Below are positions 48,165 to 51,405 of a stretch of 56,694 nt of DNA, piece by piece. Position 1 is the first letter of the stretch; the number at the start of each line of letters is the position of its first letter. The DNA is from Gammaproteobacteria bacterium (GTDB lineage Bacteria > Pseudomonadota > Gammaproteobacteria > Pseudomonadales > Azotimanducaceae): contig JAPPGK010000040.1 of NCBI GenBank assembly GCA_028821405.1, positions 1 through 56,694 of the forward strand, written 5' to 3'. The notes beneath the pieces were generated by a model. That model was not told the origin of the DNA, made no database searches, and saw nothing but the letters and a program-made list of their open reading frames with translations. Position numbers and translations under genes: made by a program.

Positions 48165-48307
48165 GCCGACTATCCCTCAAATCCCGGCATTGTAGCGTGC
48201 GCCAATGGCAGGCGAGCACGTGGCCACTCTGTGAGTGCAGCACCCCGTTGGCCGTTCCCGACGCCTTGCGCCTTGGCACGGCACGACGTGCGATATGCGG
48301 CGCGACA

Positions 48308-48450
48308 CTAGGAAACCTCTGTTCAAGTCTGTCCCTGGACTTGAACAGTAGCGAAACAAATAGTTTCACGTGTAAATTCAATGGCTTACGCCATCGAATT
48401 TGGCGGCACATCCCTGTGCCTCGCTAGGGAAGGTCTTGTTCAGACCTTCC

Positions 48451-48454
<4 letters not shown>
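48308..48454. mobile_element. MITE-like element of five adjacent hairpins
   Basis: A 147-bp non-coding element with CTAGG and CCTAG at its ends. The outer 22 bases of the two ends match as inverted repeats at 16 positions. Inside are five hairpins in a row: 48319-48348 (11-bp perfect stem), 48353-48367 (GAAAC/GTTTC), 48374-48401 (12 bp with one mismatch, loop TTAC), 48405-48420 (GGCACA/TGTGCC) and 48424-48454 (13-bp perfect stem CTAGGGAAGGTCT, loop TGTTC). Gaps between them are 3-6 bases. The element is AT-richer than its surroundings. Its right end supplies the slmA TAG stop, so the last hairpin may also end slmA transcription. No transposase is near. The rest of the 48165-48450 gap is featureless. 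Confidence 0.65.

Positions 48455-51405
<2,951 letters not shown>

Follow-up and report, generated by a model that had tools for sequence, protein, structure and literature searches.

The question raised by this locus is what kind of sequence occupies the 147 bp immediately behind slmA. The window, that is, the whole analyzed stretch of 56,694 nucleotides from a member of the Gammaproteobacteria, carries at this point a compact series of hairpins. The initial annotation interpreted these as a small non-autonomous transposable element that may have reshaped the end of SlmA, with a structured RNA as the alternative. The features are collected in Table 1.

Table 1. Features of the element and its neighbors in the window.
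Feature	Coordinates	Strand	Remarks
Whole element	48308..48454	minus (strand of its RNA)	139-bp core plus the two 4-bp target copies
Hairpin H5', 13-bp stem	48424..48454	minus	first on the RNA; contains the terminal repeat
Hairpin H4', GGCAC-AGGGAU-GUGCC	48405..48420, loop 48410-48415	minus	CsrA-type; hexaloop ANGGAX closed by C-G
Hairpin H3'	48374..48401	minus	loop GUAA (GNRA type)
Hairpin H2', short	48353..48367	minus	decayed in the window copy
Hairpin H1'	48319..48348, loop 48331-48336	minus	CsrA-type; loop AGGGAC
Terminal repeat GGAAGGTCTGAACAAG	48435..48450	minus	14 of 16 bases as in the E. coli IS5A right end
Target site duplication CTAG, outer left	48308..48311		basis: matching tetramers in own copies, empty sites
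Target site duplication CTAG, outer right	48451..48454		holds the slmA stop TAG (minus strand)
slmA, 196 aa	48451..49041	minus	ORF; SlmA-like_C 6.3e-33, TetR_N 7.2e-10; stop codon in target duplication
Small lipoprotein-like ORF, 117 aa	47811..48164	minus	no Pfam match; 143 bases beyond the element

The five hairpins reported for the element were found in a row, exact to the base. The claimed stems of 11, 12 (one mismatch) and 13 bp are the arms detected by inverted-repeat analysis (48319-48329/48338-48348, 11 nt, 100%; 48374-48385/48390-48401, 12 nt, one mismatch; 48424-48436/48442-48454, 13 nt, 100%), and the two shorter hairpins, GAAAC/GTTTC and GGCAC/GTGCC, were read directly from the sequence and are present in the predicted fold. 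A recount of the imperfect inverted repeat formed by the ends again gave 16 of 22 bases. The fold predicted for positions 48290-48470 reached -83.8 kcal/mol, whereas 200 dinucleotide shuffles averaged -48.6 (sd 3.57; z = -9.86) and not one of them equaled it. Relative to the other copies in its genome, the window copy has a decayed second hairpin (GCGAAAC/GTTTCGC in the others) and has lost the closing pair of H1' (C.A here, C-G elsewhere). Some family members are longer: additional hairpin arms in or after H3 produce elements of about 230 bases at L040 and L045 of one genome (G028) and at L137, L143, L159, L169, L176 and L200 in other MAGs.

This 147-bp sequence is mobile. The window's genome contains 29 full-length copies of 146-148 bp, the window's included, none with a transposase gene; the other 28 are 93-96% identical to the window copy, and one diverged copy (79%) and several fragments were found in addition. 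The copies occur in both orientations, and in 28 of the 29 the end tetramers match, which corresponds to a 4-bp YTAR target duplication around the 139-bp core. Read in one orientation, these tetramers are CTAG/CTAG in 25 of the 29 copies, CTAA/CTAA in three and CTAA with CTAG in one. For elements of other genomes, end tetramers agreed in 27 of 38 cases versus 7.0 expected with shuffled ends, and 0 of 10,000 trials reached 27. The flanks of one copy (L025) are joined at a single CTAA in two relatives (G011 and G003), and 17 of the 29 own copies have their duplication at the exact end of a gene predicted by a simple custom script. The search of this and related genomes for further copies and empty sites, as initially suggested, therefore returned both. 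Together with the target duplications and the IS5-like ends described below, these copies and empty sites support the proposal of a small non-autonomous transposable element with a CTAG target.

A few copies have unusual structures. A copy of about 88 bases at G000:C69:68483-68570 (L084) has lost its middle and kept both ends together with H4 and H5. Elsewhere in the same genome (contigs C21 and C45), an 82-base sequence (L083:1986-2067) adjoins the cut-off left part of an element copy and is present again in inverted form, with 96% identity, at L082:2080-2161, 11 bases before a solitary right end; a similar stretch is present at L037 (G001). These 82 bases are either a second repeat or the product of rearrangement between copies. 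No match was obtained when the window's element, compared with plasmids and phages, or two distant family members, one compared with plasmids and one with phages, were used as queries, nor did the exact core pattern match viral contigs, and a viral scan with the neighboring phosphoribosyltransferase gave nothing useful.

The ends of the element point to the machinery that moves it. The two ends of E. coli IS5A read GGAAGGTGCGAATAAG and GGAAGGTGCGAACAAG, and the right end of the element, GGAAGGTCTGAACAAG, agrees with these at 13 and 14 of 16 bases, respectively; the left end of the own copies, GAAACCTCTGTTCAAG, is less like an IS5 end. Relatives of the IS5 transposase were found in 8 of the 22 element-bearing genomes searched. 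In one element-bearing genome (G454), a resident IS5-type IS ending in GGAAACGCTGATTTATTCC is present in five copies flanked on both sides by matching tetramers (CTAG, CTAA, TTAG, TTAG and ATAA), and GGAAGCGCTGATTTATTC, with which the G454 element starts, shares 17 of 18 bases with the end of the IS. The element thus has the end GGAAGGT.GAACAAG and the 4-bp YTAR-type duplication in common with the IS5 group of the IS5 family (E. coli IS5A and the ISs of G454, G318 and G001), but differs from these ISs in being 147-160 bp long, in lacking a transposase gene and in having a body that consists of a five-hairpin RNA. No IS5-type transposase was found in the 122 contigs of the window's genome, where a PF05598 search likewise gave nothing useful; the copies there may be stranded, or their autonomous partner may be absent from the assembly.

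The slmA stop codon lies inside the element, as was noted at the outset, namely within its last four bases, and this had been taken to suggest that the insertion may have reshaped the end of SlmA. The genus relatives speak against this. Of the 15 other genomes of the genus, 12 gave a SlmA match; in all 12 the element is absent from the 70 bases after the slmA stop, in 11 the protein ends at the same residue (judged by eye), and in 10 the stop itself lies in CTAG or CTAA. The occurrence of CTAG or CTAA at the relatives' empty stop indicates that the stop codon was the target of the insertion and that the duplicated CTAG restored it.

Relatives of the element were detected by sequence similarity in 5 of 194 other genomes and by a core-pattern scan in 86 stretches (15 MAGs among the 80 listed), and in both sets the hairpins are kept with different stem sequences. 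In an alignment of 26 elements hand-picked for full length, 97.4% of cells were paired and two-sided changes occurred in 17 of 43 pairs, which none of 500 shuffles reached; because 13 of the 26 rows came from the scan, whose pattern included H4 and not H1', the conservation of H4' in this set is partly built in. A covariance model built from the 26, as the initial annotation had recommended, was run on 369 Gammaproteobacteria genomes and recovered the five-hairpin element from 66, among them that of the window. In a sample of 398 genomes taken from the whole phylum it matched 48, and 45 of these lie outside the class. From the 65 and 45 other matching genomes, the best matches were fetched, one per genome, for 29 class loci and 9 outside-class loci. 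Among the 29 further class elements, 1210 of 1219 cells were paired and two-sided changes were seen in 39 of 43 pairs, in an alignment fitted to the model structure; only its first 29 rows were used, since it also held 12 weak opposite-strand matches. Copies elsewhere and compensatory changes, whose joint lack had been named as speaking against both a mobile element and a conserved RNA, therefore both exist. In one MAG, S012_135, whose host is 'Deltaproteobacteria' by the record's own label, 25 listed stretches within L129-L197 form a diverged branch with the ends CAGYCCGTYGAAAAA and, by eye, end tetramers such as CTAT, TTAG and CTAA.

The paired positions also reveal a strand. Read on the minus strand, the 26 elements contain 41 G.U cells versus 7 A.C cells, although 26 of the 41 fall in two neighboring pairs and are thus not independent, and the 29 class elements contain 39 versus 2; these counts identify the minus strand as the RNA strand. 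Folding stability favored the minus strand in 47 of 53 elements and the other strand in 6, and the third hairpin, H3', has a GNRA loop on the minus strand in 21 of the 26. It might be argued that what is read is folded single-stranded DNA, recognized by the transposition machinery as in hairpin-reading elements, for which mobility and five strong hairpins on both strands could speak. We consider this extremely unlikely: pairing in DNA gives no reason for G.U over A.C on one strand, H3' mostly has the GNRA-type loop, and IS5-group transposases are DDE enzymes, which act on double strands. The alternative of a structured RNA, with a strand-specific five-hairpin fold kept by compensatory change, is supported alongside mobility. 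A single element thus fits both readings, and of the initial interpretation only the reshaped SlmA end had to be given up. Judged by its covariation, the body of the element is a conserved structured RNA as well.

Two loops of this RNA hardly vary. In the H1' loop of the 26 elements, A is present in 26, the N position is any base, the following G, G and A are present in 25, 26 and 26, respectively, and X is C, T or G; the closing pair has C in 26 and G in 25, and one of the 26 has lost a G of H1'. Under the strict motif, A(N)GGAX had to sit on a stem of five or more pairs closed by C-G. Among the 29 class elements, which were found with a model itself built from sequences carrying these loops, H4' conforms in 29 and H1' in 25, so that 25 of 29 carry both; the H1' exceptions are L220 (AGGAAT), L234 (no GGA) and L240 and L241 (CGGAT). 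The motif was found in none of the 29 on the opposite strand, and its frequency was 1.90 per element versus 0.016 in shuffles. In the nine outside-class elements, the strict motif is present in seven H4' loops, of which one has U.G closing, and in eight H1' loops. The accessible text of a structural study of RsmE describes an ANGGAX hexaloop placed directly on a C-G closed stem as the high-affinity site, whose affinity is lowered by omission of N (PMC4005645). The element family has both forms, the hexaloop with N and the pentaloop without it, the latter in 15 of the 25 strict H1' loops.

An ordinary IS5-type MITE might also produce such a body, its hairpins arising from nested terminal repeats, with template switching, a source of paired changes, mending imperfect palindromes, and its loops having no function. 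An inverse copy does follow each terminal repeat, and the element is oriented without preference to genes. However, template switching gives no reason for A, GGA and the closing C-G to stay fixed while N and X vary freely, nor are the confinement of the motif to one strand and the excess of G.U over A.C readily accommodated; moreover, none of H2', H3' and H4' is a terminal repeat, yet all three keep their place and show compensatory changes. We regard this explanation as unlikely. Ribosome-binding sites also contain GGA, and the loops of a conserved RNA could face a different partner, either 16S rRNA, in a Shine-Dalgarno-like manner, or a protein other than CsrA; conservation of the loops would hold whatever the binder. 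This seems very unlikely, as the fixed and free positions coincide with the CsrA/RsmE consensus, including the C-G closing pair and the N-less pentaloop, so far as given in the accessible text (PMC4005645), and the occurrence of any base at N in the 26 elements would fit Shine-Dalgarno pairing poorly.

The putative partner is available in the hosts. A single CsrA is encoded in the window's genome and closely resembles solved CsrA proteins, and CsrA was found in 56 of 58 element-bearing genomes queried, the two without a match (G316 and G201) both being fragmented. Genomes without the element had CsrA in 17 of 22 cases (Fisher p 0.015 versus the 56 of 58), an association of little weight because CsrA is near-universal and the samples are unmatched and include genus relatives; three of the 22 belong to the genus, and they supply two of the five that lack CsrA. 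Two genomes of the same genus, G003 and G005 (rated 98% and 96% complete), have neither a CsrA match nor the element; the four members of the genus that carry the element have CsrA.

Taken together, the element moves, has IS5-like ends, preserves a five-hairpin fold through compensatory changes on a defined strand, and has two near-invariant loops across Gammaproteobacteria and beyond. Stem sequences vary, also in the hairpins that the terminal repeats form, and the fold and the two loops persist. The best explanation, which we hold to be probable, is a MITE moved by IS5-group transposases whose body is a conserved strand-specific RNA with two docking loops of the CsrA/RsmA type, H4' and H1'. 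From these loops we infer that the RNA binds CsrA and that, once expressed, it would act as a CsrA sponge.

The genomic context suggests how expression might come about. The RNA strand of the window copy is slmA sense, and the copy is placed in the slmA 3' region, ahead of the lipoprotein-like gene. A search for sigma-70-like promoters, confined to that type, found none in 48200-48600, nor was a minus-strand terminator found in the same interval; with no such promoter in the window copy, expression would depend on the neighbors. Orientation to tandem neighbor genes showed no preference (19 sense versus 21 antisense), which lends no support to a fixed orientation and provides no hint of host selection for a UTR role. 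Placement between convergent genes was suggestive only, both for the own copies (14 of 27) and for the pooled copies (25 of 74, p 0.057 versus an assumed 0.25); the gene calls behind these counts came from simple custom scripts, and 36 of 110 pooled copies were left unclassified. According to the mechanism we propose, a copy would be transcribed by read-through from a neighbor gene, and one CsrA dimer would clamp both H4' and H1' of the read-through RNA. Each transcribed copy would thereby become a small CsrA decoy that titrates CsrA, and the flanking mRNA may become CsrA-responsive.

Such titration might conceivably serve the element itself, if its RNA drew CsrA off a CsrA-repressed IS5 transposase mRNA and so increased transposition. 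The element is moved by IS5-type transposases and would titrate CsrA, but no strict CsrA hairpin was found at the transposase start in 11 IS5-type loci, where hairpin sites were sought and not single-stranded GGA. These loci yielded only one weak 4-bp hairpin with G-C closing (L242), and that of L244 belongs to a neighboring element. A selfish circuit of this type therefore appears highly improbable.

Several known systems resemble the element in part. The sRNAs CsrB/CsrC, RsmX/Y/Z and Alteromonas Aln1a-c also present A(N)GGA motifs in hairpin loops, according to the accessible texts (PMC4005645, PMC5864184). These are sRNA genes with their own promoter, whereas the element is multi-copy and mobile, with two sites and no promoter found. 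Two GGA hairpin loops also characterize TwoAYGGAY (RF01731) and Bacillaceae-1 (RF01690), for which CsrA binding was proposed from the motif alone; unlike the element, they are not described as mobile in the accessible part of that report (PMC4333381). Both were absent from the Rfam matches of the window part (up to E 10) and of 19 loci (up to E 1), and membership of the family in Rfam 15 was rejected, as these searches returned chance-level matches only. The IS200 5'tnpA RNA of Salmonella is also a structured regulatory RNA derived from an insertion sequence, and its binding by CsrA has been raised as worth testing; it is part of the transposase transcript of another IS family, and the accessible text claims no conserved two-loop CsrA site for it (PMC12594629). 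The 'GUCCY-hairpin', as it appears in the accessible text (PMC2864571), may correspond to part of such an element, seen from the opposite strand.

No paper joining CsrA with a MITE, or describing the element family, was found in the searches, which covered the open-access PMC literature. REP/BIME, ERIC and Correia are, like the element, multi-copy palindromic intergenic elements; their ends, sizes and sequences differ from it, and we know of none with conserved CsrA loops. MITEs are a known kind of element and CsrA sponge RNAs a known kind of regulator, and there is a fair chance that the combined element is a kind of its own.

A wider view, which we put forward tentatively, is that these elements may constitute a superfamily of mobile regulator-catching RNAs: an IS5-mobilized MITE with a long-kept two-site CsrA clamp, occurring in Gammaproteobacteria and at least one more class, in which transposition would set the dose of CsrA decoys and rewire the Csr regulon. 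The covariance model would give genome annotation a family that Rfam searches of the window part and the 19 loci missed. If the proposal is true, a transposable element family has kept the binding sites of a global post-transcriptional regulator across classes, element copy number would be tied to the CsrA pool, and many non-model bacteria would have an unexpected source of sponge RNA. It would also pose a testable question, namely whether some bacterial MITEs persist through the RNA that they encode and not by jumping alone.
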